Below are positions 28,591 to 62,575 of a stretch of 64,000 nt of DNA, in pieces; position 1 is the stretch's first letter, and each line of letters starts with the position of its first letter. Source of the stretch: Pseudomonadota bacterium. GTDB lineage: Bacteria; Pseudomonadota; Gammaproteobacteria; Burkholderiales; Methylophilaceae. The position numbers and the translations under genes were made by a program. The notes below the pieces were generated by a model. That model was not told where the DNA came from. It saw only the letters and a program-made list of their open reading frames with translations, and searched no databases. The stretch is taken from contig JAKQIT010000074.1 in the NCBI GenBank assembly GCA_029556915.1, positions 310,001 through 374,000 on the forward strand, in the 5' to 3' direction.

Positions 28591-28733
28591 GGAAACACGT
28601 AATAAGTGAGCGTGCGGGATGAAGTGCGAGGCGCACGGAACGCAAAAACCGAGATAGTACGCGGTGTACAGCGAGGTTGTGAGTACCGCGCAACGATGCA
28701 ATTCGCCCGCGCAACCACTTATTCCTCGTTTCC
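28591..28733 (+). repeat. Long multi-hairpin repeat, copy A (between nit and tldD)
   Basis: An outer stem of 18 nt arms (28591-28608 with 28716-28733, 15 of 18 paired) encloses a core also found at 62451-62557. Core hairpins are GTGCG-AGG-CGCAC, GTAC-GCGGT-GTAC and GTTGTG-loop-CGCAAC (with one G-T wobble). The element carries no plausible gene; a minus-strand open frame across it gives only the repeat-derived peptide. It lies inside an apparent operon. Confidence 0.88.
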
Positions 28734-28755
28734 TTATTTAAGTATCGGATAAAAC

Positions 28756-30213
28756 ATGAGCAACCCCAATAAACCATTAGGCACACATTTTGATTTAGCC
28801 ACGCAGGCTTTACTCACCCCTGCCAGCTTAGATGTCGCTAACCTGCAAAATGTATTGGGCAGCATGATGCACCACCACATTGATTATGCCGATTTGTATT
28901 TTCAATACAGCCGTTCAGAAAGCTGGGGGCTAGAAGAAGGCCAAGTGAAATCTGGCAATTTTTCGATAGACCAAGGCGTGGGCGTACGTGCAGTCAGTGG
29001 TGAAAAAACCGCCTTTGCCTATTCTGACGATATTAGCCTCAACGCCTTGCAAGAAGCAGCAAAAGCCACCAAAGCGATTGCCAGCTTGGGCAGTGAGCAA
29101 ACCGCAAAATCAGTGATTACCCGCCAAAATGCACCGCTTTATATGCCAAACGACCCCATCGCATCGCTCTCGGCAGATGCTAAAGTAAAGTTGCTAGAAC
29201 GCTTAGAACAATACGCCCGTAAGCTAGACCCGCGCATTACACAAGTCACCGCCTCTATCGCAGGGGAATACGAAGTGGTGATGGTGGCACGCCATGATGG
29301 CGTGATGGCGGCGGATGTGCGCCCTTTGGTGCGCGTGGGCATTAGCGTGATTGCCGAAAGCAATGGCAGACGCGAACAAGGCTCCGCAGGTGGTGGTGGA
29401 CGTTTTGATTACAGCTATTTTACCGATGAAGTATTGCACAACTACGCGCAAAAAGCCGTGCATCAAGCGATTGTTAACCTTGATGCGCGCCCTGCCCCCG
29501 CTGGCAGCATGACGGTTGTGCTTGGTGCGGGCTGGCCGGGCATTTTGCTGCATGAAGCCATTGGCCACGGGCTAGAGGGCGACTTTAACCGCAAAGGCAG
29601 TTCGGCTTTTTCAAATATGATAGGCCAACAAGTGGCGGCTAAAGGCATCACCATTGTAGATGATGGCACGATTGCAGATAGGCGTGGCTCACTGAGCATG
29701 GACGATGAAGGCAACCCAACCCATAAAACTGTGCTGATTGAAGATGGCATTTTGCGCGGCTATATTCAAGACACGCTCAACGCCCGCTTGATGAACATGC
29801 CAATAACAGGCAACGCGCGGCGTGAAAGCTACGCGCATATCCCCATGCCGCGTATGACCAACACTTACATGCTTAACGGCACCACGCCGCCCGAAGAAAT
29901 TATTAAATCTGTCAAAAAAGGCTTATACGCGGCCAACTTTGGCGGCGGGCAAGTGGATATTACCAGCGGCAAATTTGTGTTTAGCGCAGCCGAAGCCTAC
30001 ATGATTGAAGATGGCAAAATCACCTACCCCGTCAAAGGTGCCACACTGATCGGCAACGGCCCAGAAGTGCTTAAACGCGTGAGCATGATAGGCAACGATA
30101 TGGCGCTAGATTCTGGCGTGGGCACTTGCGGAAAAGAAGGTCAAAGCGTGCCAGTGGGCGTGGGGCAGCCGACATTGAAAATTGATGGTTTAACTGTCGG
30201 CGGAACGGTTTAA
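28756..30213 (+). CDS. tldD: Metalloprotease TldD
   Basis: The 485-residue TldD/PmbA family protein has the zinc motif HEAIGH (266-271) and downstream 'GLEGDFNRKGSSAFSNMIGQQVA'. The C-terminal conserved 'NFGGGQVDITSGKFVFSAAEAYMIEDGKITYPVKGATLIGNGPEVL' is also present. TldD with TldE (PmbA, not in the window) degrades unfolded peptides and matures modified peptides such as microcins. It is preceded by a long hairpin repeat that separates it from nit. Confidence 0.96.
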   Translation: MSNPNKPLGTHFDLATQALLTPASLDVANLQNVLGSMMHHHIDYADLYFQYSRSESWGLEEGQVKSGNFSIDQGVGVRAVSGEKTAFAYSDDISLNALQEAAKATKAIASLGSEQTAKSVITRQNAPLYMPNDPIASLSADAKVKLLERLEQYARKLDPRITQVTASIAGEYEVVMVARHDGVMAADVRPLVRVGISVIAESNGRREQGSAGGGGRFDYSYFTDEVLHNYAQKAVHQAIVNLDARPAPAGSMTVVLGAGWPGILLHEAIGHGLEGDFNRKGSSAFSNMIGQQVAAKGITIVDDGTIADRRGSLSMDDEGNPTHKTVLIEDGILRGYIQDTLNARLMNMPITGNARRESYAHIPMPRMTNTYMLNGTTPPEEIIKSVKKGLYAANFGGGQVDITSGKFVFSAAEAYMIEDGKITYPVKGATLIGNGPEVLKRVSMIGNDMALDSGVGTCGKEGQSVPVGVGQPTLKIDGLTVGGTV

Positions 30214-30248
30214 TTTAGCAAAAATACAGCGTTTTTAGCATTAAATCA

Positions 30249-30310
30249 TTTCACCACCCCGCTAAGCCTCTTGGTAGGCGGCTCACAGAGGTATAATTTT
30301 CTCTCGGATG
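30249..30310. repeat. Palindromic intergenic repeat, copy 6 (diverged)
   Basis: Forward orientation: TTTCACCA, core CCCCGCTAAGCC-loop-GGCTCACAGAGG with a changed loop (TCTTGGTAGGC), then TATAATTTTCTCTCGG. It lies between tldD and the convergent integrase gene, at the edge of the integron. Confidence 0.85.
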
Positions 30311-30421
30311 AGTTTTATTTGATATAACTAAAATTTTATATTGAATAAATGGTGAGTTTTCGCATGAATTTTTGCGCGGTTTTAAACGGATTTTTCCATG
30401 ATTTTTTAATGCCAAAACTGC

Positions 30422-31408
30422 TTAACCCAAAACATCCAGCGGACTGCTCACACCCTTGCCACCTTTGTTCAAAACGTGCGTGTAAATCATGGTGGTGCTC
30501 ACATCGCTATGCCCCATTAACTCTTGCACGGTGCGAATATCGTAGCCGCCTTGCAACAAATGCGTGGCAAAACTGTGGCGCATGGTGTGCGGCGTGGCAA
30601 GCTTGTTAATTTTGGCAAAGTTTGCCGCTTTTTTAACCGCGCGTTGCACGGTTTTTTCATCGGCATGGTGACGGCGTACTAGCTTGCTACGCGGGTCAAC
30701 TGATAACTTGATGGAAGGAAACACATACTGCCAAGCCCAGCTTTTACCACCGTTTGGATATTTTTTATCCAAAGCCATTGGCATAAATACATCCCCATAA
30801 CCCGCTGCTAAATCTTCATTGTGCAAGGCTTGCGTTTTTTGCAGATGCGTTTTTAGCGGCTCGACCAAACTTACCGGCAGCATCGTCACCCTATCTTTAA
30901 AGCCCTTACCCTCGCGCACCAAAATCTCACGGCGGGCAAAATCAATATCTTTTACGCGCAGACGCAGCGCTTCCATTACACGCAGACCACTACCGTAAAG
31001 CAAACTCACAATCAGCCACATAGTGCCATCTAAGCGGCTTAAAATCGCCTGCACTTCCGCTTGTGTCAGCACCACCGGCAACCGCTTGGGGACTTTGGCT
31101 TGGGTCACATTATCTAGCCAAGGCAACTCCACCCCCAGCACTTCTTTATAGAGAAACAACAAAGCGCTTTTAGCTTGATTTTGCGTACTGGCAGAAACAT
31201 TACGTGCCACCGCCAAATGGCTTAAAAACGCTTCAACCTCCGTCGCACCCATATCAAGCGGGTGACGCTTGCCATTTTGCAAAATAAAGCGTTTAATCCA
31301 ATCTACATACGCCTGCTCGGTGCGGATGCTGTAATGCTTAACACGCAACTTAGCCACCACTTGCTCAAGCAGTTTTGGCGGGTGTGTTTGGCTAGCAGTT
31401 TTCGACAT
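30422..31408 (-). CDS. intI: Integron integrase IntI
   Basis: The 328-residue tyrosine recombinase has catalytic Arg143 ([12 protein letters not shown]), His274/Arg277 ([12 protein letters not shown]), His300 ([10 protein letters not shown]) and Tyr309 (MIYTHV). The extra block between the catalytic boxes, '[21 protein letters not shown]' (about 211-232), is the insertion that separates integron integrases from XerC/D. By family knowledge it recombines attI with attC of gene cassettes. The gene is divergent from the cassette array at 31527-34290, as in all integrons. No truncation is seen, so it may be active. No SD is evident. A TATAAT (31446-31451) lies about 40 bp upstream. Confidence 0.93.
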
Positions 31409-31445
31409 AAATAGGTGTGATAAATAAATACTTGTAATTGATTTA

Positions 31446-31451
31446 ATTATA
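31446..31451 (-). promoter_or_regulatory. Probable -10 box of intI
   Basis: Minus-strand TATAAT sits in a very AT-rich gap upstream of intI. The -35 partner is weak (TTTTCA-like at 17 bp), and no LexA CTG-N10-CAG operator was found. The same gap must hold the cassette promoter on the plus strand; I could not fix one. Confidence 0.45.
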
Positions 31452-31514
31452 CAATAAAGTAATCAGTATGAAAATTTTAACCAGCCCAGATAAAAAATTA
31501 AGTTTTTATTTGGG

Positions 31515-31532
31515 GTCTACTTTACGTTAGAC
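31515..31532 (+). other. attI: attI-like integron recombination site
   Basis: The core GTTAGAC (31526-31532) matches GTTRRRY, with an inverted GTCTA (31516-31520) six bases upstream. The pair of inverted simple sites next to the first cassette is the attI arrangement. The predicted crossover is between G31526 and T31527. The first cassette ORF begins 26 bp later, after a strong AGGAGG. Confidence 0.7.
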
Positions 31533-31557
31533 TGCTCTAAACTCACAGGAGGAACTC

Positions 31558-32082
31558 ATGCTCAACCTTATCGTTCTCGTCATTTTTGCGCTTATCGCTG
31601 GGATACTCATTTACGCCGCGACCAAGCCAGACATTTTTCGTGTCGAACGCTCAATTAATATCAAAGCATCTCCAGAAAAAATATTTCCCCTCATCAACGA
31701 TTTTCATTCGTGGCAGGCATGGACACCTTACAACAAAGACCCTGCGATGAAAAAAACCTACAGTGGCAGCGACAGCGGGAAAGGCGCGCATTATGCGTGG
31801 GAAGGCAACCAAGATGCTGGTGTAGGTGACATCACAATTTCTGAATCCACACCGCCCAACAAACTGGTTTTTGATTTGCACATGGTTAAGCCATTTGAAG
31901 CACGTAATGTTGCAGAAATCAGCCTCAATGCGACTGGCGACTTTACTACCGTTACTTGGAGCCTCGTTGATAAGCATAATTTAATGTTGAAAACCATTTC
32001 TTTGTTTGTAAACTTGGACAACACTATTGGAAAAGATTTTGAGGTTGGTCTTGCCAATTTGAAGGCTATCGTTGAACAGTAG
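31558..32082 (+). CDS. Membrane-anchored SRPBCC protein (cassette ORF)
   Basis: The 174-residue protein has an N-terminal membrane span (about 3-22) and then a polyketide cyclase/START-type domain ('ERSINIKASPEKIFPLINDFHSWQAWTPYNK', 'MKKTYSGSDSGKGAHYAWEGNQ'). Such proteins are common integron cargo; the ligand is unknown. It is the first ORF after attI and has the best SD in the array (AGGAGG). Confidence 0.85.
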   Translation: MLNLIVLVIFALIAGILIYAATKPDIFRVERSINIKASPEKIFPLINDFHSWQAWTPYNKDPAMKKTYSGSDSGKGAHYAWEGNQDAGVGDITISESTPPNKLVFDLHMVKPFEARNVAEISLNATGDFTTVTWSLVDKHNLMLKTISLFVNLDNTIGKDFEVGLANLKAIVEQ

Positions 32083-32114
32083 GCCAATGCCCAGCCCACC
32101 GAATTTTTATTGTC

Positions 32115-32510
32115 ATGATTGAATACCGCCACAATTCCCCCCTTGAAGCTGCTGATGTTGCAGCGGTTTTCGACGCTTCCGGCATTCGCCGCCCCACCAA
32201 TGATTTAGCGCGGATTGAGCGTATGTTTGCTAATGCCAACCTTGTTCTCTCCGCTTGGTATGAAGGCAAACTTGTAGGAGTGTGCCGCGCCCTGACCGAT
32301 TTCAGTTACTGCTGCTACCTTTCCGACTTGGCGGTAGATAAGGCTTATCAAAACCGTGGAATTGGGCAGCAACTTATTGCCAACGTTCGTTCGGCCATTG
32401 GGGAGGAGGTAGCACTTATCCTAGTATCCGCACCAGAGGCGATGGCGTATTACCCCAAGGTAGGATTCGAGAAAATAGAAAATGGCTTCATCATCAAACG
32501 AATTCGGTAA
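32115..32510 (+). CDS. GNAT N-acetyltransferase (cassette ORF)
   Basis: The 131-residue GNAT fold has the acetyl-CoA loop 'QNRGIGQQLIANV' (about 76-88) after a strand 'YLSDLAVDKAY' and ends 'AYYPKVGFEKIENGFIIKRI'. The substrate is unknown. It lies 32 bp after the SRPBCC gene with no attC between them. Codon use is richer in G and C than in the preceding ORF, suggesting a different donor. Confidence 0.87.
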   Translation: MIEYRHNSPLEAADVAAVFDASGIRRPTNDLARIERMFANANLVLSAWYEGKLVGVCRALTDFSYCCYLSDLAVDKAYQNRGIGQQLIANVRSAIGEEVALILVSAPEAMAYYPKVGFEKIENGFIIKRIR

Positions 32511-32575
32511 ATTAAAACCTGACCGAGCGTATCCTCAGAAAGACCCAATCACCTGATTCCATATTAGACCTTTCC

Positions 32576-32971
32576 ATGCTCGTACTCGACCACGTTTCCA
32601 TTTCCGTTCCAAGTATCGACAATGCCCGTCCATTTTACGATGCCGTGATGGCCGCACTTGGCGTTGACAAAGTCTATGATCTCCCTGGTGCGCTTGGCTA
32701 CGGTGTGCGATGTAACGGCATTGAAGACTTCCATTCTTGCTTGGCTGTTTATGAATCGGCCGAGGCCAATTTCGACGAAAAGCGCCACTGGTGTTTCAAA
32801 GCAACTACCAGAGCACAAGTCGCAGCCTTCTATTCTGCCGGTCTGGCTCATGGCGGCAGGGATAATGGTGCGCCCGGCCTTCGTCCGCATTATCATGCTG
32901 ATTATTTTGGTGCCTTTCTGTATGACCCGTTTGGCAACCGAATAGAAGCTGTTTGTCATCGTGCGGAATGA
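32576..32971 (+). CDS. VOC-fold (glyoxalase/bleomycin-resistance-like) protein (cassette ORF)
   Basis: The 131-residue protein has one VOC module pair: 'LDHVSISVPSIDNARPFYDAVMAALG' at the start, 'RHWCFKATTRAQVAAFYSAGL' in the middle and 'FGAFLYDPFGNRIEAVCH' at the end. Metal ligands would be His5 of 'DHVSI' and the final Glu. The enzyme activity is unknown. It is the third ORF of the first cassette block, just before the clear attC. The 65-bp gap before it holds a mutated core-like ATTAGAC (32563-32569). Confidence 0.87.
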   Translation: MLVLDHVSISVPSIDNARPFYDAVMAALGVDKVYDLPGALGYGVRCNGIEDFHSCLAVYESAEANFDEKRHWCFKATTRAQVAAFYSAGLAHGGRDNGAPGLRPHYHADYFGAFLYDPFGNRIEAVCHRAE

Positions 32972-32974
32972 TAG

Positions 32975-33041
32975 GTCTAACAAATCATTCCACCGGACCT
33001 GCGCGAAAAGCCGCGCAGTCCGGTGAATTCAAACGTTAGGC
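32975..33041 (+). other. attC: attC site 1 (cassette recombination site)
   Basis: A 67-bp site has the 5' core GTCTAAC (32975-32981) and 3' core GTTAGGC (33035-33041), exactly complementary apart from one position. The internal hairpin CACCGGACCTGCGCG / CGCGCAGTCCGGTG has few mismatches. Unpaired bases on one arm (AATCATTC versus GAATTCAA) are of the kind that set strand choice. It is located immediately after the VOC ORF. Confidence 0.92.
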
Positions 33042-33047
33042 AAACCA

Positions 33048-33398
33048 ATGTCCATCAAGACCGCTCCACCTAAGCCCCTACCAAAATTGGTCATACCCCT
33101 AGGGTTAATAATTGCTGGTTTCGCCATTTATGGTTTCTTCAATGATTTGTGGCATTTATATTCATTTGGTACGGTCGTAAAAGAATATCGCACCGGAGGT
33201 GGCATCGGAGTGACAAAACCAAATTTCACTGAAATTAGCGGTATTGCCGCATGGCTGCAATTATTCGGCGAAGCTGGTTTGGCTGCTACAGGGCTAAGTG
33301 CTGTTGTCTTATGGCTTAGAAAGAGATTTTTATATTTTTTCCCTCTCACAATTGCACTGTTAATTTTTTCAAACTACTTGTCTGGCTATGGCAACTAG
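33048..33398 (+). CDS. Hypothetical membrane protein (cassette ORF)
   Basis: The 116-residue protein has about three hydrophobic segments (15-33, about 67-87 and about 95-110) with basic residues between them, indicating an inner-membrane protein. No family recognised. Its ATG is seven bases after the attC core, and a second attC follows it, so it is a single-gene cassette. No SD is obvious. Confidence 0.75.
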   Translation: MSIKTAPPKPLPKLVIPLGLIIAGFAIYGFFNDLWHLYSFGTVVKEYRTGGGIGVTKPNFTEISGIAAWLQLFGEAGLAATGLSAVVLWLRKRFLYFFPLTIALLIFSNYLSGYGN

Positions 33399-33404
33399 AA
33401 CTTT

Positions 33405-33460
33405 GCATAACCTATCATTCAAGCGGTGCGCCTAAAGATGCCCTCATGCAAACGTTATAG
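33405..33460 (+). other. attC: attC site 2 (degenerate)
   Basis: The 5' core GCATAAC (33405-33411) faces a 3' core-like GTTATAG (33454-33460). The 5' half TATCATTCAAGCGG is a classical attC R''-L'' segment, but the central stem is weak. It probably marks the end of the membrane-protein cassette; ability to recombine is doubtful. Confidence 0.6.
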
Positions 33461-33467
33461 CTCAATC

Positions 33468-34289
33468 GTGCCCAAAGTTTTTTACATCCGTTTTTGCACT
33501 TTGCTTGTGTTATTGTTGGGCAGTTGCGCCACGCACAACGCGCCTGAAATCATCTCTGCTAATTCAGCTAACGTGCACAGTGCTGGTTGCGGAATTAAGC
33601 ACATTGGCACAAACAAATTTAAGGCCACGCAACTTACGATTCAAGACCAAACGCGTAATTATCATTTGCACGTACCTGCTGGCTATAATCCTGAGCGCGC
33701 GTACCCGCTTATTTTTCTCTTTCATGGCTATGGTGGCAACGGTTTAAGCGGTGGATTGGGTATTGAGCACAATGCAAAAGGTAACGCGCTAATTGTTGGC
33801 GCAGATGGACTTAATAACCAATGGAATCAATCGACTAAAGAAAATGATTTGCACTTTTTTGACACTATGCTTGAGACAATTTCTAGTCAATATTGCGTAG
33901 ATAAAAACCGTGTTTTTAGCTATGGTTTTAGCATGGGCGGGTATTTTACAAACTTACTGGCTTGCGAGCGTGGTAATGTGTTGCGTGCAAGTGCATCTAT
34001 TGCGGGCGGGCCGCGTGGCAATGATTGCAAAGGCAAAGTGGCTGCTTGGTTTTTGCACGATACCGATGATAAAGCGATTAATATCTCGCAAGGAATAGCC
34101 GCGCGCGATAAAGCCATTGCAACGAACGGCTGCTCGCAAGAGACTATTGAACTAGAAAATGGCTGTGTACAATACCAAGGTTGCCAAGAAACCCCTATCG
34201 TTTGGTGCCAAACGTCAGGCTTTGGGCACGATATTCGTGGCGATGTTGCCCCAGCAAGAGTTTGGAAGTTTTTTCAACAATTTCGTTAA
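33468..34289 (+). CDS. Lipoprotein esterase, PHB depolymerase/feruloyl esterase-like (cassette ORF)
   Basis: From GTG 33468 the protein is 273 residues. The start gives a lipoprotein signal ('RFCTLLVLLLGSC'), whereas the longer frame from 33426 would run through the attC. An alpha/beta-hydrolase domain follows: oxyanion 'LIFLFHGYGGNG', nucleophile elbow 'YGFSMGGYF' (GxSxG), an acid in 'LHDTDDKAI', and His in 'SGFGHDIRG'. This matches the secreted LpqC-type esterase group; the natural substrate is unknown. There are many Cys residues (likely disulfides). It is the last ORF of the array; no convincing attC follows it. Confidence 0.82.
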   Translation: MPKVFYIRFCTLLVLLLGSCATHNAPEIISANSANVHSAGCGIKHIGTNKFKATQLTIQDQTRNYHLHVPAGYNPERAYPLIFLFHGYGGNGLSGGLGIEHNAKGNALIVGADGLNNQWNQSTKENDLHFFDTMLETISSQYCVDKNRVFSYGFSMGGYFTNLLACERGNVLRASASIAGGPRGNDCKGKVAAWFLHDTDDKAINISQGIAARDKAIATNGCSQETIELENGCVQYQGCQETPIVWCQTSGFGHDIRGDVAPARVWKFFQQFR

Positions 34290-34310
34290 AATTAAGCCTA
34301 ATCGATTTGC

Positions 34311-35888
34311 TTAAATTTTAGTCATATTATTGAGTAGATATTGCGCGCGTGCTTGCACTTCTGCCACGTCCGCTTCACTAAATCGGTCTACATTTTTAGC
34401 CATTAAGGCGGTGCGTGGGTTGCGGCTGAAGGTGTCGTAATGTTTAATTAAAAAATTCCAATAAAGCGTGGTGGTTGGGCATGCGTTTTCGCCCGTTTTG
34501 AGCTCTGGCTTGTATTTGCAATTGCTGCAGTAGTTGCTCATGCGCTTGAAGTAAGCACCACTGGCAACATAAGGCTTGCTGGTAAAGCGCCCACCATTGG
34601 CGTACAAGGCCATGCCAGCCACGTTTGGTAACTCCACCCACTCCACGGCATCTACATACACGGCTAAATACCAAGCTTCCACTTCGCGCGGGTTTAGTTC
34701 TGCCAATATGCCAAACATGCCAGTAACCATTAAGCGCTGAATATGGTGTGCGTAACCATGCTGCATAGTGTCGTTGATGGTTTGCCTCATGCAATTCATG
34801 TGGGTATCGCCCGTCCAATACCAGCTTGGTAATGGGCGCGTATGCTGGTAATGATTGGCCTCGCTCATTTTTGGCATATCTAGCCAATAAACGCCGCGTA
34901 TAAACTCACGCCAGCCTAAAATTTGCCGAATAAAGCCTTCTACACTTGCTAACGGCAATTGGTTCTTTTTATAAGCAGCAACTGCTGCCGCAATGACTTC
35001 ACGCGGGTTAAGCAGTTTTAAATTAAGTGAGCTAGAAAGTAGCGAATGCCATAAATACGGGCTTTGCTTACTATCGGCGGATTGCCACATCGCATCTTGA
35101 TGCTCGCCAAAACCTGCCAGCTTGTTGTTGATAAAATCAGCTAAAAAATCAAGCGCAGCTGTGCGGGATACCGGCCAAATAAAGTGCTTTAATGACCCTG
35201 GATGATGAGGGAAATATTGTTCAACATCCGCGATAACTGCTTGGGTGAGCGCATCAATACTCACTTGCGGCGCCATTGGCACATTTTGCGGACCCGCTTT
35301 ACCAAAGGTTTTGCGATTTTCCGCATCGTAGTTCCACGCACCTCCTTCTGGCACTTCACCTTGCATTAGCACATCATATTTTTGGCGCATTTTGCGATAG
35401 AAGAATTCCATGCGTAATTGCTTATTGGCTTTTGCCCAATGGATAAAATCCGCTTTGCTACACATAAAATGTGTGTCATCGCGCACGACTAATTTGGTGT
35501 TAGTTTCTTTACACAGCACAATTAAATCTTGCTCTAGGCGATATTCACCAGGCTCGCAAATAATGATTTTTTGTGGTTTTAGATTGGCAATTTGGTGCGC
35601 CCAAGCAGCTTTTAGCGTCGCAAAATCATGCTCACCGAGCTTTAAATAGATGCTCCAAGATTTTAAATCATGAGCACCGCATGGATATTGGGCTGCAAGG
35701 GCATCATAAAAATGCCGCATAGCCGACAAAAATAGCACAATGCGTGCTTTGTGACTCCATACCTGCGTAGCTTCATGGCTCACTTCTGCCATCATAATTA
35801 CATCTTGCGCAGGGTCAAAACCTTCTAAGGCTGGGTTATCAAGATTTAACTGATCGCCCAAAATTAAAATGAGGTGTCTTGTCGTCAT
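34311..35888 (-). CDS. FeS-type cryptochrome/photolyase (CryB/PhrB family)
   Basis: The 525-residue protein begins 'HLILILGDQLN' and has the FeS-BCP features. Four Cys, 366 (HMNC), 454 and 457 (NYCSNC) and 470 (ENACP), are placed to bind a 4Fe-4S cluster. FAD-site elements are 'GFIRQILGWREFIRGVYW' and 'HHIQRLMVTGMFGILAELNPREVEAWYLAVYVDAVEWVELPN'. The family repairs (6-4) photoproducts in light. The gene starts with ATGA, overlapping the stop of the DUF2256 gene upstream, so the two are translationally coupled. Confidence 0.95.
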   Translation of the reverse strand: MTTRHLILILGDQLNLDNPALEGFDPAQDVIMMAEVSHEATQVWSHKARIVLFLSAMRHFYDALAAQYPCGAHDLKSWSIYLKLGEHDFATLKAAWAHQIANLKPQKIIICEPGEYRLEQDLIVLCKETNTKLVVRDDTHFMCSKADFIHWAKANKQLRMEFFYRKMRQKYDVLMQGEVPEGGAWNYDAENRKTFGKAGPQNVPMAPQVSIDALTQAVIADVEQYFPHHPGSLKHFIWPVSRTAALDFLADFINNKLAGFGEHQDAMWQSADSKQSPYLWHSLLSSSLNLKLLNPREVIAAAVAAYKKNQLPLASVEGFIRQILGWREFIRGVYWLDMPKMSEANHYQHTRPLPSWYWTGDTHMNCMRQTINDTMQHGYAHHIQRLMVTGMFGILAELNPREVEAWYLAVYVDAVEWVELPNVAGMALYANGGRFTSKPYVASGAYFKRMSNYCSNCKYKPELKTGENACPTTTLYWNFLIKHYDTFSRNPRTALMAKNVDRFSEADVAEVQARAQYLLNNMTKI

Positions 35889-36049
35889 TTAGCCAACTTA
35901 GAGGTTTTGCGACATTTGTCTGAGCAATATTTAATGTCATTCCAATTTTTTGCCCATGACTTTCGCCAAGTCATGCTTAAGCCGCATTGCGCGCACATTT
36001 TGCTTGGCAAGTTACTTTTATTGCCCTTAAATGTTTGATGAATTTTCAC
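35885..36049 (-). CDS. DUF2256 zinc-ribbon-like small protein
   Basis: The 54-residue protein reads from GTG 36049: 'SNLPSKMCAQCGLSMTWRKS' then 'YCSDKCRK'. Two CxxC pairs (Cys19/22 and Cys42/46) with 'WRKSWAKNWNDIKYC' between them match DUF2256. The stop overlaps the photolyase ATG by two bases (ATGA). DUF2256 genes often sit next to photolyase/CryB genes; a shared role is inferred. It begins 15 bp after the MORN-repeat gene's stop. Confidence 0.87.
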   Translation of the reverse strand: MKIHQTFKGNKSNLPSKMCAQCGLSMTWRKSWAKNWNDIKYCSDKCRKTSKLAK

Positions 36050-36064
36050 CTGATACTTGCAGCA

Positions 36065-36511
36065 TTATTGTGCAACGACTTTACCATCTTTGTAGCGTGT
36101 GCTTGATTTTAAGCTGCCATCTTTAGTCCAAGCTTGCTCCACGCCATCTTTTTTGCCCTGTATAAAATTGGCTTCCACCCTCTTTTGGCCGTTATCGTAC
36201 CACTGTATAAATACGCCATGCTCTTGCGCCTCTAATTTAAGCTGACCATTTTCATACCATTGATTCCAAATACCGTCTTCTTTATCATCCACATAGTTTG
36301 TTTGAATCTGCTTGCTGCCACTAGGGTAATAAAAAATTTCTAATCCTTCTTTTTTGCCTTGCTTAATATTAACCTCGTATTTTGGCTTGCCATCTGCAAA
36401 ATAATCTACATGCTTGCCTGTAAAGTTTGCATCAAAAAATGTTTGCGCACCTGCTACGCTACTCACTAACAATAATAAAACAGTGGATAATTTTAAACCT
36501 ATTGAATGCAT
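36065..36511 (-). CDS. Secreted MORN-repeat (YwqK-like) protein
   Basis: The 148-residue protein has a signal peptide to about residue 22 (VSSVAGA). Then 'YFADGKPKYEVNIKQGKKEGLEIFYYPSG', 'NYVDDKEDGIWNQWYENGQLKLEA' and 'GVFIQWYDNGQKRVEANFIQGKKDGVEQAW' are MORN-variant repeats seen in the YwqK family. The molecular role is unknown. It is the first gene of the cluster that continues with DUF2256 and the photolyase. Confidence 0.8.
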   Translation of the reverse strand: MHSIGLKLSTVLLLLVSSVAGAQTFFDANFTGKHVDYFADGKPKYEVNIKQGKKEGLEIFYYPSGSKQIQTNYVDDKEDGIWNQWYENGQLKLEAQEHGVFIQWYDNGQKRVEANFIQGKKDGVEQAWTKDGSLKSSTRYKDGKVVAQ

Positions 36512-36874
36512 GGTATTGTCGCCAAAAATATAATTTCAATAGATGTTGATAACCGTTAAATGTTCCCAATCAGTTTTAAATTTAGGGCAGAAATATTGTG
36601 CAAATCCATTACAATAAATCATTATTTTTGTCGTAAAAAAACCAACAAATCAATTCACCACCTCTGCAAGCCAGTATCCATGCGGGTTACAGAGGCATAA
36701 AATTCTCTCGGGCAAATTTTTAGTAAATTTACACACTTTTGAATAATAAAAATCAGCAGCAAAAATTTAGCGCATCACCTGCAAAAATACGCGTCATAAA
36801 TTTACGCAAATAACCGCGTTTTACCAAGCTCAGCCGTTATAATCTAACCTTCAAAAATCCACGTAAAAGTATTC
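36512..36874. other. Divergent intergenic region between MORN gene and mfd
   Basis: About 360 bp. It contains palindromic repeat copy 7 at 36653-36713. A TATAAT at 36838-36843 lies 30 bp before the mfd ATG and is the likely mfd -10 box, although no good -35 is visible. The rest is AT-rich. Confidence 0.6.
36653..36713. repeat. Palindromic intergenic repeat, copy 7
   Basis: Forward orientation: TTCACCA, core CCTCTGCAAGCC-loop-GGGTTACAGAGG with a two-base mismatch in the stem, then CATAAAATTCTCTCGGGC. Confidence 0.92.
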
Positions 36875-39800
36875 ATGTCGCAGACTTCACTGCCAATACC
36901 AAAGCAAAGCACTGCCAGCCGCGCAACATTAGCCAACCACGGTGAAGACGCGTTAGCGCTAGCTGATTTGTCGCTTCGCTTAAAAACAAATAAGCAGCCG
37001 CTCGTCATTATTAGCGCCAGCGCTTTTGATGCGCAACGTTTGCTGGAAGAAATCCCCTACTTTGCCCCCAGCTTAAGCGTACATTTATTGCCCGATTGGG
37101 AAACGCTACCTTACGACCAGTTTTCGCCACACCCTGATTTAATTTCTGAGCGACTCACCACGCTGTATCACATTGCGCAAAACGCCTGCGATGTCATTAT
37201 TGTGCCGCTCTCCACCGCGCTCATTCGCCTGAGCCCCAAAGCGTATTTGAGCGCCAATACCTTTATGCTCAAAAAAGGCCAAAAGCTAGATATTGAGGCT
37301 TTGCGCTTGCAATGTGCAGAAGCAGGCTACCACCATGTGACACAAGTGATTTCACACGGTGAATTTAGCGTGCGCGGCGGTTTGGTGGATTTATTCCCCA
37401 TGGGTTCTGCCCTGCCTTACCGCATTGATTTGTTTGATGATGAAATTGAAACCATCCGCACGTTTGATGTAGATACCCAGCGTAGCCTTTACCCCGTGCC
37501 TGAAATTCGGCTTTTGCCAGCACGCGAGTTTCCGCTAGATGAAACGGGTATTGCGCTATTCCGCAGCCAATTTCGCGAAGCGTTTGAGGGTGACCCGCAA
37601 CGCGCCAAAATTTACAAAGATGTCAGCAAAGGCATTGCCTCAGGTGGTATTGAATGGTATTTGCCGCTGTTTTTTGAGCAAACTGCGACCCTGCTAGATT
37701 ATCTACCCGCCGACGCGCTACTTTGCTTACATGGCGATTTAGACCATAGCGCCCAGCAGTTTTGGCGGGAGGCTCAAACCCGTTATCGTAACTTGGCGCA
37801 CGATAGCGAGCGCCCAATTTTGCCGCCTGAAACATTACTGATTAAAACCGAAGATTTTTTTGCCGCCACCCACACATTTTCCCGCATCGCGCTTAGCATC
37901 ACCAAAGCAGGCAATGGCTTACCCACGCTAGAAATTGAGCGCCGTGCTGAAAAACCCTTACATAAATTAGCTGACTTTATTAGCCAATTTACTGGTCGCA
38001 CACTGATTGTGACAGAAAGTTTAGGCCGACGTGAAACTATGCAACAGCTATTTAACGAGCATGGCTTAACCGTGAGCATCTGTGAAACTTGGGCAGATTT
38101 TGTGCAATCAAAAGCGGCGGTTTTACTTGGTGTTGCGCCACTTCATGCGGGGTTTGTGCTCAATGCTGAGACTAAAAAGGCCATCGCTATCATTACCGAG
38201 GCCGAGCTTTACGCCGCCACCGTGCGGCAACAACGTCGTCGCGAAAAAGAAAAAGCCCGCAGCACAGAGGGCATGCTCAAAGATTTATCTGAGCTACGCT
38301 TCAACGACCCAGTAGTGCATGAGCAACACGGCGTGGGGCGCTACAAGGGCTTGGTAAACTTAGACTTTGGCGAGGGCGAAACTGAGCTTTTATTATTAGA
38401 ATATTATGGTGATGACAAGCTTTATGTGCCTGTTTCACAACTTTTCCTCATCTCACGTTACTCTGGCGGCCCGCCAGAAAGCGCCCCACTGCACCGCTTA
38501 GGCAGCGGTAATTGGGAAAAAGCCAAGAAAAAAGCGTTGAAGCAAATCCGCGATACTGCGGCTGAATTACTCAATTTATATGCACAACGCGCGGCACGGC
38601 GAGGCCATGCGTTTACGCTCAGCTTGCAAGATTACGAAGCCTTTTGCGAGGGCTTTCCATTTGAAGAAACACCAGACCAACTAGAAGCTATTGAAAATGT
38701 CATTAAAGACATGCAATCTGGCCGCCCGATGGATAGATTGGTGTGTGGCGATGTGGGCTTTGGCAAAACCGAAGTTGCCCTGCGCGCGGCTTTTGTGGCG
38801 GTGATGGGCGGCAGACAAGTGGCCGTGCTGGTTCCCACCACTTTATTGGCCGAGCAACACTTTAATAATTTTAGTGACCGTTTTGCCGAATGGCCCATAA
38901 AAGTAGCAGAAATTTCGCGCTTTAGAACCGCTAAAGAGCAGGCCGAAGCCTTACGAGGCTTGGCCGCTGGAGAAATTGACATTATCATCGGCACGCACCG
39001 GCTGATTCAAAAAGATGTGAAGTTTAAAAACTTAGGCTTGGCGATTTTAGATGAAGAGCACCGCTTTGGTGTGCGCCAAAAAGAGCAACTTAAGGCTTTG
39101 CGTGCAGAAGTGGATGTACTCACGCTCACCGCAACACCGATTCCGCGCACACTCAGCATGGCGATGGAAGGCCTACGCGAATTTAGCGTGATTGCCACAC
39201 CACCGCAAAAACGCCTAAGCATTAAAACCTTTCATACCGAATACTCTGAAGGTATTATTAAAGAAGCGGCTATGCGTGAATTTAAACGCGGCGGCCAAGT
39301 CTATTTTTTGCATAATGAAGTGGATACCATCCATAGCATGCGCGAAAAGCTAGAACGCATGCTGCCCGATGCCCGCATTGCCGTGGCGCATGGTCAGCTA
39401 CGCGAGCGCGAACTTGAGCATGTCATGCGCGATTTCTACCATCAACGCTACAACTTGTTGCTTTGCACCACCATTATTGAAACGGGCATTGACGTGCCCA
39501 CCGCCAACACCATTATTATGAACAAGGCCGACATGTTTGGCCTCGCGCAAATGCACCAGTTACGTGGCCGCGTAGGACGCAGCCATCACCAAGCCTACGC
39601 GTATCTGCTGACCGATGCTGGGCGCAAAATCACGCCTCAAGCACAAAAACGCTTAGACGCCATTCAACTGATGGAAGACCTAGGTGCAGGCTTTCACCTT
39701 GCCATGCATGACTTGGAAATTCGCGGTGCGGGCGAGTTGCTAGGCGATAGCCAAAGTGGCGAAATGCAAGAAATTGGCTTTCATTTATATGCCGACATGC

Positions 39801-53210: not shown

Positions 53211-53277
53211 GTGTCCAAAACCACCCATTCGGGCTATGATAACGCTTGGTTTTAGCTAAAAACTAGGTGAGCGCATC

Positions 53278-53955: not shown

Positions 53956-53972
53956 TTTAAGCCATTTTCATC

Positions 53973-55436
53973 ATGCACGATTTTTTAAAAACATGGTGTT
54001 ATGCACTCGCATTCAGCCTGATTTTGGTAGCGTGCTCAGCGCAAAACAAGCAAGTCCCTACTAGCGAAATTCCACCCGCGCCAGAAATTGCGGCTTTAGC
54101 CACTGACGAAATTGTATTTGTCACGCACCTCAGCCGAGCATCTTATTATTTAAATGGCAATAATGAATGGGCTGGGATTGATCATGATTTAGCCCAACTA
54201 TTTGTTAAGCAATTTGCGCCTGAGTACAAAATTCGTTTTGTGGTTGCGCCGCAACTAAACGAAATTATTCCAACTTTGCTAAAAAACCAAGCCCACATTG
54301 CGACAGGTTTAAGCATCACTGATTTGCGCAAAGAACTGATTCTATTTGCAACGCCTTTTTACGACACGCAACAGCAGTTGATTTATAACAACGAAAATAC
54401 AAAAACATATAAACCAAAAAGAGCTGCTCCATTAGTTAGTTTTATCCAAGATAAAAACCTCAGTGTACCTGCGGGCTCTAGCGCGATTGAGCGTTTAGAA
54501 AAAATGCAGCAAGCGCAACCACAACTCCAGTGGCAGGCCAGCCCAACGGCTAATGCTGACGTACTTTTAGAAAAAGTTGCGCTTGGCGGGCTAGATTTAA
54601 CCATTGCTAATAGCCATTTGGTGGATATTATGCAAAATTTTCACCCACAACTATCTGTCGCTTCGTCGTTAGGTGAACCCGAAAAAATGGCTTGGGCTTT
54701 CTCAAAAAATGCCGACCCAAAACTGATTGAAAAAGTGAATAAATTTTTCAAAAAAATTCGCAATGATGGCACCTTACACAATTTAATAGACCGCCACTAC
54801 GGCCATGCCAACCGACTCAGTAGTGACGATATAAACGTATTTTTAGCGCGTACAGATAACTTGCTGCCGCAATATGCGCCTTTATTTAAAGCCGCCCAAC
54901 AACAAACCGGCATAGATTGGCGCTTGTTGGCTGCGCTGAGTTACCGCGAATCACATTGGGATACGCACAACACCTCGCCCACAGGCGTGCGCGGCTTGAT
55001 GATGTTGACCGAAAATACCGCGAATCTCATGGGCGTCACTGACCGACTAGACCCAATACAAAGCGTGCCTGCCGGCGCAAAATACATTGCTAAACTGATT
55101 GATTTGATTCCAGAAAATGTGCCTGAACCAGATCGCACCTACATGGCGCTGGCGGCTTACAACATTGGCTACGCGCATTTGCAAGATGCACGCGCACTTA
55201 CCAAGCGCTTGAATTTAAACCCAGATAATTGGGTAGATGTGAAAAAAGCCCTGCTTAAACTGAGTGACCCCGATTATTACAGCACCACCAAATACGGCTA
55301 CGCCAGCGGCGGCGCACCTGTAGTTTTTGTAGAAACAGTGCGTAGCTATCAGCGCATTTTAGAACATATTCAGCCAGGTGTTGATGTCAGCGAGCAAGCA
55401 ATTATTGCGCAAAATGATGCTGAAATTACACCATAA
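53973..55436 (+). CDS. mltF: Membrane-bound lytic transglycosylase F-like protein
   Basis: The 487-residue lipoprotein has a lipobox-like LVACS (about 17-21), then a substrate-binding-protein-type domain (SBP_bac_3, about 45-275). A C-terminal lytic transglycosylase domain follows, with catalytic Glu in 'LSYRESHWD' and 'SPTGVRGLMMLTENTANLMG'. MltF cleaves peptidoglycan glycosidic bonds from the outer membrane with release of 1,6-anhydro sugars. Length and order of domains fit MltF. Confidence 0.94.
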   Translation: MHDFLKTWCYALAFSLILVACSAQNKQVPTSEIPPAPEIAALATDEIVFVTHLSRASYYLNGNNEWAGIDHDLAQLFVKQFAPEYKIRFVVAPQLNEIIPTLLKNQAHIATGLSITDLRKELILFATPFYDTQQQLIYNNENTKTYKPKRAAPLVSFIQDKNLSVPAGSSAIERLEKMQQAQPQLQWQASPTANADVLLEKVALGGLDLTIANSHLVDIMQNFHPQLSVASSLGEPEKMAWAFSKNADPKLIEKVNKFFKKIRNDGTLHNLIDRHYGHANRLSSDDINVFLARTDNLLPQYAPLFKAAQQQTGIDWRLLAALSYRESHWDTHNTSPTGVRGLMMLTENTANLMGVTDRLDPIQSVPAGAKYIAKLIDLIPENVPEPDRTYMALAAYNIGYAHLQDARALTKRLNLNPDNWVDVKKALLKLSDPDYYSTTKYGYASGGAPVVFVETVRSYQRILEHIQPGVDVSEQAIIAQNDAEITP

Positions 55437-55453
55437 AAAATCACTTAATTTCA

Positions 55454-55518
55454 CCCGAGAGATTTTTATGCCTCTGCAAGCCGCATGCAGACTGGCTTAC
55501 AGAGGTGCTGAAATGATT
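55454..55518. repeat. Palindromic intergenic repeat, copy 10
   Basis: Reverse orientation: CCGAGAGATTTTTATG, CCTCTGCAAGCC-loop-GGCTTACAGAGG, TGCTGAAATGATT, loop GCATGCAGACT. It lies 17 bp after mltF, just before the shared terminator. Confidence 0.93.
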
Positions 55519-55524
55519 TGATAT

Positions 55525-55552
55525 AAAAAACCGGTTTTTAACCCGGTTTTTT
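55525..55552. terminator. Bidirectional terminator between mltF and serS
   Basis: The stem AAAAAACCGG/CCGGTTTTTT lies between the two convergent genes, with A and T tracts on both sides. Confidence 0.85.
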
Positions 55553-55562
55553 GTACTAATTT

Positions 55563-58320
<2,758 letters not shown>

Positions 58321-58338
58321 AATGTTTATGTTGTCGGG

Positions 58339-58947
58339 TTATTCGCCAACAATATCTACACCTTTTGGCGGTGTAAATATAAAGACTGAATTTTGCAACG
58401 CAGGGTTACGCTCAACCGCTTTAAAGCTAATGTGGGTAATATGCTTGAAGCTATCGTGCAGTTCCATTTTCTGCAATTTATCCGCTTTAAAGCCTAAAAA
58501 AACTTTATCGAAGCCACTGTCTTTTTCTTTAGGCAGCACTTGCACCCAAGTTAAATCATCTGAGCGAGCTTCATTACTTAAGGTGAAATTTTCATCCAGT
58601 GCCGCACCGCCTGCCAACAATGAAGCTGGGCTAGCACTCAGCGCTTTGCTTATTTCACGCACGGTCACTTGCTGCAAGTCCACATCATATAAAAACACTT
58701 GTTTGCCATCACTGACAATTTGTTGCTCGTACGGTTTTTTATAATCCCAGCGGAATTTATTTGGGCGATATAGCTGCATGGTGCCTTGCACTTCTTGTAT
58801 TTTACGACCTTGCGCATCGTTCACCACTTGGCTAAATTGCGCGCGCATGGCGTTGGTTTTGCTATAAAAATCACGCAAACTTGAAACGCCATCTGCCAAA
58901 GCAGCTTGGCTAAAAAAGACTAAGCCTGCAAATATTATTTTCTTCAT
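58339..58947 (-). CDS. lolA: Outer-membrane lipoprotein carrier protein LolA
   Basis: The 202-residue periplasmic protein has a signal peptide ending near residue 18 (ALA-DG). The LolA features 'MRAQFSQVVNDAQGRKIQEVQGTMQLYRPNKFRWDYKKPYEQQIVSDGKQVFLYD' and a beta-sandwich follow. It ferries lipoproteins from LolCDE to LolB. AAAGGG precedes the ATG. Downstream genes are rarA and serS; ftsK lies upstream. Confidence 0.95.
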   Translation of the reverse strand: MKKIIFAGLVFFSQAALADGVSSLRDFYSKTNAMRAQFSQVVNDAQGRKIQEVQGTMQLYRPNKFRWDYKKPYEQQIVSDGKQVFLYDVDLQQVTVREISKALSASPASLLAGGAALDENFTLSNEARSDDLTWVQVLPKEKDSGFDKVFLGFKADKLQKMELHDSFKHITHISFKAVERNPALQNSVFIFTPPKGVDIVGE

Positions 58948-58971
58948 TCAACCCTTTCAATTGCTTGTAAA

Positions 58972-59087
58972 AATGCTTTATTTCGAGCACAGTTCAAGGC
59001 GCACGGAACGCAACACCACAGACAGTACACGTAGTACGGCGAGGATGTGAGTACCGCGCAACGCCGAAATGTGCCGATAGAAACATT
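58972..59087 (+). repeat. Long multi-hairpin repeat, copy C (diverged)
   Basis: The core shares CGCACGGAACGCA, AGTAC, TAGTAC and GTGAGTACCGCGCAACG with copies A and B. The GTAC-ACGTA-GTAC hairpin is kept, the first hairpin is lost and the third is weakened. Outer arms (58972-58991 with 59070-59087) pair only in part, mainly GCACA/TGTGC and AATG/CATT. It lies between ftsK and lolA, in the opposite direction to their transcription. Confidence 0.75.
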
Positions 59088-59089
59088 AT

Positions 59090-61405
59090 TTACTCTTCTG
59101 AGCCACCACTTTTTACCAGCACCTCACGATTACCATTGCTCTGCATCGCTGATACCAACCCTGCACGCTCCATATCTTCAATTAAACGCGCAGCGCGGTT
59201 ATAACCAATCCGTAACTGGCGCTGCACCGCAGAAATACTCGCACGGCGGGTTTTTAGCACAATGGCAACGGCTTCATCATAAAGCGGGTCTGCCTCTGCG
59301 CCGCTAGGTTGCCCACCTGCAACAAAGTCTCCGCCACCCTCTTCTACTTCGTTGGTTAGGATGCCCTCAATATAATTTGGTTCACCTTGCGCTTTAAGGT
59401 AGTCCACCACTTTATGCACTTCGCGGTCTGACACAAATGCCCCGTGAATGCGCAGTGGGTAACCCGTGCCGGGTGGCATGTATAACATATCGCCTTGACC
59501 TAATAACGCTTCAGCGCCCATTTGGTCTAATATGGTGCGTGAGTCAATTTTGCTCGACACCTGAAATGAAATACGCGTTGGCACGTTCGCCTTAATCAAA
59601 CCTGTGATGACATCCACCGATGGACGTTGCGTAGCTAACACTAAATGGATGCCACAAGCACGGGCTTTTTGCGCTAAGCGAGCAATCAACTCTTCCACTT
59701 TTTTGCCCACCACCATCATCAAGTCGGCTAGCTCATCAATCACCACTACAATTAATGGCAGCTCTTCTAATGGTTCTGGTTCATCTGGCGTTAAGCTAAA
59801 TGGATGCGGAATTTTTTCACCAGCTTTATCAGCCTCTTTAATTTTTTGGTTATAGCCCGCTAAATTACGCACGCCTAACATTGACATTAATTTATAGCGG
59901 CGCTCCATTTCAGCCACACACCAATTGAGCGCGTTAGAGGCTTGGCGCATATCCGTCACTACAGGCGCAAGTAAGTGCGGAATACCTTCATAAACTGAAA
60001 GCTCTAGCATTTTGGGGTCGATTAAAATCATGCGCACTTGGCTCGCATCGGCTTTATACAGCCAGCTTAAAATCAGTGCGTTGATGGCGACAGATTTACC
60101 CGAACCCGTGGTACCTGCTACCAAAACGTGCGGCATTTTGGCTAAATCAGCTACGGCAGGGTTGCCCGCAATGTCTTTACCTAAAGAAATAGCTAAAGGC
60201 GAATGAATATCCGCATAAGCTTGGCTACTCATAATTTCAGATAAATGCACAATTTGCCGTTTGGGGTTAGGAATCTCTAAGCCCATGCAAGTTTTGCCAG
60301 GAATGGTTTCTACCACGCGCACGCTAATGACTGAAAGCGCACGGGCTAAATCTTTAACCAAATTGGTAATTTGGCTGCCTTTCACGCCTGCTGCTGGCTC
60401 TAGCTCAAAGCGTGTAATCACCGGGCCGGGTTGCGCGGTAAGCACTTTTACCTCAATGCCAAAATCACGTAATTTTCGTTCTATCAAACGTGAGGTAAAA
60501 TCGAGCGTTTCAGCAGAAGGTAACTCCACAGTGCCTGTTGGTGCGTCAAGCAAATGTAATGGCGGCAAACTTGAATCTGGCAGGGCTTCAAAAAGTGGGG
60601 CTTGTTTTTCTTTTTGCACACGCTCACTTTTTTCAATTTCTACTTTAGGCGTTTTAATTTCGACAGGGGCGCGGTCTTCAAAATGTTTACGCTCATTTTC
60701 AACAAAGGCTTCGCGCTCTTGCAACACCACTTTACCCGCTTTTCTGTCTTGCCAGTCTTGCCACTTAAAAATCACCCATTCATAAGCGGCGATTAAATTT
60801 GCGCCTAACTTTTCAATCATCATGATCCATGACCAGCCAGTGAACAGGCTAAAGCCGACCATAAACAAACCAATCAATAACATGCTTGAACCTGTAAACC
60901 CAAGCAAACTGCGCAAGCCAGCATCCACGGCTGTGCCTATCATGCCGCCCGCTTTATCTGGCACAAGGGCGGGCAAACTGACTACATGCCCTGCTTCTAA
61001 AGCGCTAGAAGCCACCAGTAACAGGCCAAAACCAATAAAATTAAATAGCAAAAAAGGCTTTTCGTGCTGATTAACCGTATCTAATTTTAAATACACCAGC
61101 CACATGGCGTAAAAAGCTAAAATTGTCCACCACCACGCTGAAAAACCAAATAAATACAACAAGATATCAGATAGCCAAGCACCTACATTGCCACCACTAT
61201 TATGAATGATGGCATCATCCGCCGCTTGATGCGACCATGAAGGGTCTTCAGGGTGATAAGTAAATAAAATCACAGAAATAAACAGCCCAGCCAGCACCAG
61301 CACCAGCCACCAAGCTTCTTTAATCAGCGATTTACCTATCACGTGCGATGGTGAAACTTCTGCCTCTAAGCGCGCATTTTTAGGGGTCGATTTTTTGAAA
61401 ATCAA
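59090..61405 (-). CDS. ftsK: DNA translocase FtsK
   Basis: The 771-residue protein has about four N-terminal membrane spans (29-50, about 75-100, 117-135 and 165-190), a short linker, then the motor: Walker A '[22 protein letters not shown]' and '[18 protein letters not shown]'. The C-terminal winged-helix gamma domain ('[41 protein letters not shown]') reads KOPS sites. The linker is short compared with E. coli FtsK. It moves DNA through the septum and activates XerCD at dif. The start is TTG at 61405 with TAAGG ten bases upstream. Confidence 0.97.
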
Positions 61406-61868
61406 GATAGAAAAACCTTACTTTTTTAACTGAAGTTGAATTATAGCAGTATCAAAGTTTCTGCGTAGTCTATGCTGCATCATCCATAACAGTGTTTTAA
61501 AGTTTAAGCAGGTGACATGACGCATTTAAGCTAAAAATTAACAGGATAAAAACAACGATTTTTCATCATCATATTAAACAATAAAACGCCCGAGCGATTT
61601 TTATGCCTCTGTAAGCCGCATGGATACTGGCTTACAGAGGCATGCCAATGATATTGGTATAATATTGTCTCAAAATAGTATTATTTTAACTGTAACAAAT
61701 TTGAATATTTTCTGCGCTGCATTGTTTGTTATCGCTCGCGTGTAAGCAAACCATATAGATTAAAAAAAGTTATCAGCACAATATAAACAATCAATGATGA
61801 TGCCCTGATAATTTAAGCTAAAATGTGGTCTTAGCGTTTATACACATTTGTCACTTAAGGAGAACATC
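61406..61868. other. Divergent intergenic region between ftsK and dps
   Basis: About 460 bp, AT-rich. It holds palindromic repeat copy 11 (61587-61653) and the presumed dps promoter; TAAAAT near 61820 and AAGGAG at 61857 are visible. No OxyR or Fur site could be fixed with confidence. Confidence 0.6.
61587..61653. repeat. Palindromic intergenic repeat, copy 11
   Basis: Reverse orientation: GCCCGAGCGATTTTTATG, CCTCTGTAAGCC-loop-GGCTTACAGAGG (perfect 12-bp arms), CATGCCAATGATATTGG, loop GCATGGATACT. Confidence 0.94.
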
Positions 61869-62333
61869 ATGGATACAGGCATCAACGAAAAAGATCGAAA
61901 ATTGGTTGCTGAAGGATTGTCACACTTGTTGGCTGATAGTTACACGCTTTATCTTAAAACCCATTATTTTCATTGGAACGTGACTGGGCCGATGTTTAAC
62001 ACCTTGCATTTGATGTTTGAGGCACAATATAACGAGCTAGCACTAGCGGTTGACTTAATTGCAGAGCGGATTCGTGCGCTTGATTTTTACGCGCCAGGTA
62101 CTTATCGTGACTTCGCTAAACTATCCAGCATTGCAGAAAGTGAAAGCGTGCCAAAAGCCAATGACATGATTGCAGAGTTAGTGGCTGGGCATGAAGCAGT
62201 TTGCCGCACCGCAAGAAAAGTTTTTCCTGCGGCTGAAAAAGCTGCTGATGAAGCGACTGCTGATTTGCTCACGCAACGTTTACAGTTACATGAAAAAACC
62301 GCATGGATGTTGAGAAGCTTACTTGAAAAGTGA
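61869..62333 (+). CDS. dps: Dps-family ferritin-like protein
   Basis: The 154-residue protein has the Dps ferroxidase site formed between subunits: His35 (HWNVTG), His47, Glu51, Asp62 and Glu66. It stores iron by oxidising Fe2+ with H2O2 and can bind DNA. The ATG at 61869 is supported by AAGGAG; a TTG at 61848 is in frame but lies before that SD. The C-terminus ([12 protein letters not shown]) is duplicated in the DNA just downstream. Confidence 0.95.
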
Positions 62334-62339
62334 GTTTCG

Positions 62340-62438
62340 TGTGCGGTTTTTCGGCGCAGGCTAACTCGCGTAGCGATGTTAAGCAGAGCGGCCGAAGCCA
62401 AAAAACAGCTTCGATGCTTAGAAGCTTATTAGGGAAAC
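62340..62438 (+). repeat. Palindrome plus degenerate duplicate of the dps 3' end
   Basis: After the dps stop there is a long imperfect hairpin (about 62346-62405: TTTTTCGGC...GCCGAAGCCAAAAAA, with apex TCGC-GTA-GCGA). A segment at 62399-62438 follows that resembles the last 38 bases of dps (about 70 percent identical by eye) and would encode KTASMLRSLLGK against [12 protein letters not shown]. It is a direct repeat of the gene end flanking the hairpin. Confidence 0.65.
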
Positions 62439-62575
62439 ACTTCATGCGTGAGCGAGCGGGATGTAGTGCGAGGCGCACGGAACGCAGAAACCGAGATAGT
62501 ACGCGGTGTACAGCGAGGTTGCGAGTACCGCGCAACGATGCAATACGCCCGAGCAGCCACGCATGAAGTGTTTCC
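62433..62575 (+). repeat. Long multi-hairpin repeat, copy B (between dps and trxB)
   Basis: The perfect 18-bp outer arms GGAAACACTTCATGCGTG / CACGCATGAAGTGTTTCC lie at 62433-62450 and 62558-62575. The core shares nearly all bases with copy A, including the hairpins GTGCG-AGG-CGCAC is changed here to AGTGCG-AGG-CGCAC, GTAC-GCGGT-GTAC and GTTGCG-AGTACCG-CGCAAC. The arm middle differs from copy A in both arms together. Confidence 0.9.

Follow-up and report, generated by a model that had tools for sequence, protein, structure and literature searches.

Is a palindromic repeat that recurs within a bacterial genome a structured RNA, a mobile non-coding element, or both? The question is raised by two 143-bp repeats with nearly identical cores, copies A and B, and by a decayed relative, copy C, which lie in a window of 64,000 nt from a Methylophilaceae genome (GenBank assembly GCA_029556915.1, contig JAKQIT010000074.1, positions 310,001 to 374,000). 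An earlier note on this DNA had suggested both possibilities. In our best reading, the repeats are very probably miniature inverted-repeat transposable elements (MITEs) of the IS5 type, and their hairpin would form the 3′ end of messenger RNAs (mRNAs).

Inverted repeats, target duplications and an empty site

Evidence for insertion came from copy B. At the corresponding position the related locus L276 reads GCTTATTAGAAAAATAA, and our genome reads GCTTATTAG-[B]-TTAGAAAAATAA. The site in L276 is empty and holds a single TTAG; therefore the arms and the core of B were inserted together, duplicating TTAG. None of the other loci displayed at site A (29) or at site B (29) matched the core.

A profile search gave 189 matches in 180 loci, of which 141 were nearly full length and 125 were distinct full copies with flanks. 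The outer arms of these 125 copies belong to many types, for example type 1 (GGAAACrCkGAATAAGT), type 2 (GGAAGCACTGATTAAAT), type 3 (GAGACCTTTGCAAAAGT), type 4 (GGGCACTTCTATAAATAC) and type 6 (GAAGCTGTCTTAAAAAT). The arms behave as terminal inverted repeats (TIRs), since those of the same copy paired better than swapped ones (0.615 versus 0.381). Insertions of the IS5 group duplicate YTAR. This motif was present at both TIR edges in 25 of the 125 copies, as the identical 4-mer in 14, compared to 0 and 0 of 125 in a control thirty bases farther outward; it was found at neither edge in 71. The flanks of copy A, TTAT on both sides, are identical, yet they are not YTAR. The comparison with printed IS5 ends covered types 3 and 1, the other types lying outside it. 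Type 3 is identical over 15 bases, from its first base, to the end of the IS5-family element ISNme1 (GAGACCTTTGCAAAA, PMC4596501), and type 1 agrees by eye at 12 of 17 positions with that of the IS5-like ISEc68 (GGAAGGTGCGAATAAGT, PMC6763765). One TIR string also matched a sequence in a Kingella paper, but this proved to be a primer and was rejected. With TIRs and the exact empty site of B, the mobility of the element is well supported, and the idea of a mobile non-coding element was borne out.

The arms and the core are not strictly tied to each other. Exact type-1 arms were found in 9 of 250 genomes of the order, and the regions fetched around some of them contained 17 type-1 arm pairs, 106-272 bases apart, without a match to the core motif. 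Ten of the 17 had identical 4-base flanks, although the real number of such elements is below 17, as L228 and L229 resemble diverged long variants and one arm of L221 was counted twice. The chimeric copies L002 and L022 combine left and right arms from different TIR variants. One core is found with many arm types, and a given arm type can also enclose other cores; therefore TIR and core assort to some extent.

The same observations would be expected if the core were a cassette entering pre-existing palindromes, that is hairpins or other MITEs, with arms that belong to the target. At positions 88-135 of L231 (genome G190), moreover, two type-1 TIRs that together span some 47 bases enclose no core, and other hairpins are nested in the head of long variants. 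Yet arms are absent from the empty site of B, so that insertion of the core into a pre-existing host palindrome was rejected for this copy. The TTAG and TTAT duplications lie outside the arms, and L231 fits a deletion between short repeats. We therefore regard the cassette as very improbable.

One conserved hairpin inside the inverted repeats

The core had been described as three hairpins, but each predicted fold of A and B was one long interrupted hairpin. The folding energies of the single-stranded RNAs were −69 kcal/mol for B (z −6.65) and −54.9 kcal/mol for A (z −3.32), and in both cases 0 of 200 shuffles folded equally well. For the alignment step 122 of the 125 copies were kept, with those longer than 160 bases or near an end excluded. 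These gave 91 representatives, of which 88 entered alignment A1 after omission of the insertion variants L077, L137 and L164. A single-hairpin structure of 47 pairs left 83.1% of cells paired, compared to 68.4% after shuffling. Double-changed cells numbered 664 versus 249 and covariation was 0.419 versus 0.180 (0 of 500 shuffles for each of the three measures). When the structure was slid along the alignment, 33-42% were paired. The shuffles retained relatedness, and the covariation is strong but was calculated without phylogeny correction.

A double change was seen in 40 of the 47 pairs. Most double changes lie in the TIRs and the subterminal stem, but the head has some too; head pair 54:102, for instance, is A-U in 44 copies, G-C in 41 and G-U in 2. 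Strong, double-sided covariation was found inside the TIRs among 88 diverse copies, and therefore the fold is conserved, as had been proposed. The weight of the evidence has nevertheless shifted. The inner stem and the head are decisive, whereas the covarying outer arms, from which the earlier note had argued, mainly reflect TIR evolution: they change together because both ends must serve the transposase. Independent variation of the arms, named in that note as a refutation of the fold, does occur for the arms, as L002 and L022 carry mismatched types.

By template switching, one arm can be rewritten from the other, which mimics compensatory change. The element might thus be a plain MITE without function, in which template-switch (quasi-palindrome) correction during replication keeps the stem complementary and stop codons are simply sites where an insertion costs little. 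The empty site of B and the YTAR flanks, which show mobility, agree with this as well. However, such correction should remove imperfections, yet unpaired positions are conserved across the 88 copies, and columns 42:116 pair in just 10 of them. It also does not account for a head sequence that is kept between many TIR types, nor for copies that scatter within one core family with no free decay. We consider a plain MITE rather unlikely.

Distribution of the family and relation to sX9

The repeat recurs more often than by chance. In our genome (3.28 Mb) blastn found 21 places, two of which (L005 and L016, C16:20902-21092) are pieces of one interrupted copy. Matches were obtained in 24 of 61 genomes in a search of relatives that included our own genome, and at least 111 matching stretches were found in a species collection. 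A full model of 147 positions, the E-values of which are rough, found the family in 73 of 398 genomes of the phylum and in 43 of 213 genera. Among the matches listed from the species collection were Methylotenera, Methylophilus, Gallionella, Sideroxydans, Ferrigenium, Polaromonas, Rhodoferax, Rhodocyclaceae, Tepidiphilus and Salinicola. Methylophilus methylotrophus ATCC 53528 has a copy (L120). Plasmid and phage collections contained no match to B. Long variants (L069, L070, L085, L086, L099, L116, L136, L141 and L142) have an extra hairpin (AACGAAGTT..GGCT...GCCGAAGCC) nested in the head, and L178 and L230 carry a different hairpin at the same head position.

A comparison with Rfam, which the earlier note had proposed, gave 0 matches in the window at gathering scores. 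At permissive thresholds it gave sX9 (RF02228), which matched the minus strand in 5 of 9 loci with 22.2-41.2 bits (cut-off 44). In the 398 phylum genomes the sX9 model had matches in 13, in 3 of them above the cut-off; genome G624 alone had 11 matches of up to 87.8 bits. We fetched 30 sX9 loci and searched them in the opposite direction. The core profile matched 26 at E ≤0.001, and the full model covered the place of sX9 in 27, the exceptions being L325 (partial), L334 (none) and L343 (elsewhere in the locus only). Model R1 and its alignment were built without any locus above the sX9 cut-off, and R1 scored L317 (sX9 87.8 bits), for example, with 68.2 bits across 147 positions.

In the printed sX9 loci the other half of the hairpin lies beside sX9, and copies in G624 carry arms, for example AGAGCGGCTAACAAAAC / AGAGCAGCTAACAAAAC. 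A generic 14-base arm test on the 30 loci separated partially, with at least 12 of 14 in 12 of 30 own pairs versus 28 of 569 swapped pairs. At the level of sequence, these matches show that sX9 corresponds to the minus-strand half of this hairpin, and common descent of the two, as judged from the models, is well supported. The suggestion of a structured RNA thereby finds support in the homology to sX9, and the element may function as RNA. sX9 has a place in a list of the 20 annotated bacterial small RNAs with the highest prevalence (PMC9029176). In open-licence papers we found no link between sX9 and mobile DNA. In L144 an anti-hemB RNA match (54.6 bits, positions 636-728) lies about 70 bases from the element.

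Placement at stop codons

In 57 of the 125 copies the stop codon of a long frame was located close to the right end (−6 to +4 bases), but close to the left end in only 15 (binomial p 6.5e-7, relatedness ignored). In a wider window the numbers were 79 and 49, respectively, whereas equally sized windows placed 100-700 bases away gave 3-15. The right-end counts by TIR class were 5 of 12 for type 1, 1 of 6 for type 2, 3 of 12 for type 3, 1 of 7 for type 4, 5 of 13 for type 6 and 42 of 75 for other arms. Frames were called by a simple open-frame search and not by a gene finder, and on this basis neighbours on both sides were available for 83 of the 91 representatives: 37 copies were antisense tandem, 20 sense tandem, 14 convergent and 12 divergent. 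Where the right end abuts a stop codon, the neighbouring gene would read into the sX9 strand. Random tolerance, as in a plain MITE, leaves the difference between the two ends unexplained. A strand bias in genome G056 was discarded, with 14 of 34 candidates scored.

In the window, the right end of copy C overlaps the stop of a minus-strand frame (59090-61405). Copy A starts 20 bases past a plus-strand frame and copy B about 100 bases past a dps-like frame, named by inspection; A and B themselves are therefore without the stop-abutting arrangement. In several genera, copies L041, L077, L079 and L133 are located at the apparent 3′ end of groEL, before the terminator, and L040, L137, L149, L164 and L184 have the 3′ flank of another gene in common.

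The placement also bears on the possibility that the family consists of trans-acting, sX9-like small RNA genes that spread as MITE cargo, each copy being a self-contained unit with a separate promoter. In Rfam sX9 is entered as a small RNA, sX9 transcripts change in the copper-stress transcriptome of Xanthomonas (PMC10924375), and the head is the best conserved part of the element. Against this, many copies abut the stop codon and leave no space for a minus-strand promoter of their own, and sX9 spans just half of the long hairpin. We regard such cargo as improbable.

A possible role at mRNA 3′ ends

For the orientation bias and the kept core, we tentatively prefer a role as a 3′-end RNA element. 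YTAR targets hold TAA or TAG, and insertion at stop codons would be tolerated. The upstream gene would thereby acquire the element as its 3′ untranslated region. Transcription would then proceed along the minus strand of the element, the hairpin of which may shield the mRNA, pause the polymerase or be cut to give an sX9-like RNA. Selection on the fold would keep the core, and the TIRs would follow whichever transposase is present. It is possible, with similar reserve, that the hairpin module of which sX9 is half is a portable 3′-end element. Moved by different IS5-like transposases through many types of TIR, and placed at stops with a preference for one orientation, it would provide unrelated genes across the phylum with the same structured RNA end.

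Several observations weigh against the reading of an IS5-type MITE at mRNA 3′ ends. The sX9 gathering score of 44 bits was not reached by B (12.2 bits, E 4.6) or by the best copy of our genome (35.1 bits). Read on the plus strand, the wobble pairs of inner stem and head were G-T in 108 cases versus A-C in 28; this count omits pair 34:124 (53 to 5 in the same direction) and the poorly paired 42:116, 63:94 and 67:89. Arm wobble had the plus-strand direction as well (127 to 107). The folding energy of the whole element favoured plus in 73 of 121 copies versus 37 (p 4e-5), but that of the inner part did not differ significantly (57 versus 46, p 0.32). This asymmetry towards the plus strand is opposed to the use of the minus strand by sX9 and by the genes that abut with their stops.

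No autonomous partner was found in 41 genomes of the genus searched with PF01609, PF13340, PF13586 and PF05598, and the regions examined around type-1 arms contained none either. In these 41 genomes PF01609 was present in 17, PF05598 in 12, and PF13340 and PF13586 in 0. From one set of 20 transposase loci 6 were examined, most of the others being genes already seen in an earlier transposase search. An intrinsic terminator was rejected, as neither end is followed by a T-rich tail. In a small control of type-1 MITEs with different cores, 5 of 17 likewise had a stop codon at an end, compared to 64 of 125 in the family, which also speaks for a plain MITE. Finally, all counts across copies ignore common descent.

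If the proposed role at 3′ ends is true, what are called 'sX9 small RNA genes' would represent transposable element copies. With sX9 as half of a transposable hairpin, its abundance would reflect transposition, and reported changes of sX9 may reflect read-through from neighbouring genes. A core that persists while the TIRs around it change also allows one to test, in a natural setting, whether RNA is the reason for which a mobile element is kept.

Comparison with known elements

Rfam sX9, a Xanthomonas small RNA, has the head and the minus-strand half in common with the element. However, it models 76 positions on one strand, whereas the element is a palindrome of about 143 bp with TIRs. IS5-family MITEs, such as those with ISNme1-like ends, are similar in their TIRs (types 3 and 1), in short target duplications and in having no room for a transposase gene. 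They differ from the family described here, in which one hairpin core is common to many TIR types and for which the search of the genus gave no autonomous partner.

YPAL/RU-2, the Yersinia palindromic sequences, prefer stop codons. They are long palindromic miniature insertions with target duplications and are expressed with upstream genes, but their printed target duplications are 3-26 bp (PMC2229807). Membership by sequence was rejected: printed RU-2 had no nhmmer match to the core profile at E 100 and just a 16-base match to the TIR region of one copy (E 0.18). NEMIS/Correia and ERIC, likened here by description only, are small hairpin MITEs. The element would work like NEMIS, ERIC and YPAL, which are likewise bacterial MITEs present in transcripts; NEMIS RNA has been proposed as a target of RNase III (PMC2229807, PMC2267715). 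The size and the target duplication of the element argue against REP/REPIN sequences with RAYT (palindromes of 20-40 bp, tyrosine transposase); no search for RAYT was made.

Copies and flanks in the window

The positions and 143-bp lengths given previously for A and B were correct, and the pairing of their arms was confirmed by direct reading. Copy C is indeed a decayed relative (53.7 bits by profile hidden Markov model), but it extends somewhat beyond the 58972-59087 claimed for it (Table 1).

Table 1. Positions of the three copies, their terminal inverted repeats and target-site duplications in the window
Feature	Position	Strand	Remarks
Copy A, whole element	28591..28733	+	143 bp; 143.5 bits, full length, 147-position model
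Copy B, whole element	62433..62575	+	143 bp; 156.6 bits, full length; minus strand is a weak Rfam sX9 match
Copy C, decayed relative	58956..59103	+	86 bits over the full 147-position model
Left TIR of A, GGAAACACGTAATAAGTG	28591..28608	+	Read from sequence and arm listing per copy
Right TIR of A	28716..28733	+	Complementary to left at 15/18
Left TIR of B, GGAAACACTTCATGCGTG	62433..62450	+	Read from sequence and arm listing per copy
Right TIR of B	62558..62575	+	Complementary to left at 18/18
TTAT, left target-site duplication of A	28587..28590	.	Repeated at 28734-28737
TTAT, right target-site duplication of A	28734..28737	.	Read from sequence
TTAG, left target-site duplication of B	62429..62432	.	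Single TTAG in empty site of L276
TTAG, right target-site duplication of B	62576..62579	.	Sequence and comparison with L276

Between the dps-like gene and B, positions 62334-62432 contain a second repeat (GGCGCAGGCTAAC...GCCGAAGCCAAAAAAC). After it the 3′ end of the gene is present once more, and it is this duplicated gene end into which B is inserted. The repeat and the gene-end copy look like an attachment-site-like 3′-end duplication. Similar repeats are found downstream of the same dps-like gene in the relatives L271, L280, L292 and L294.

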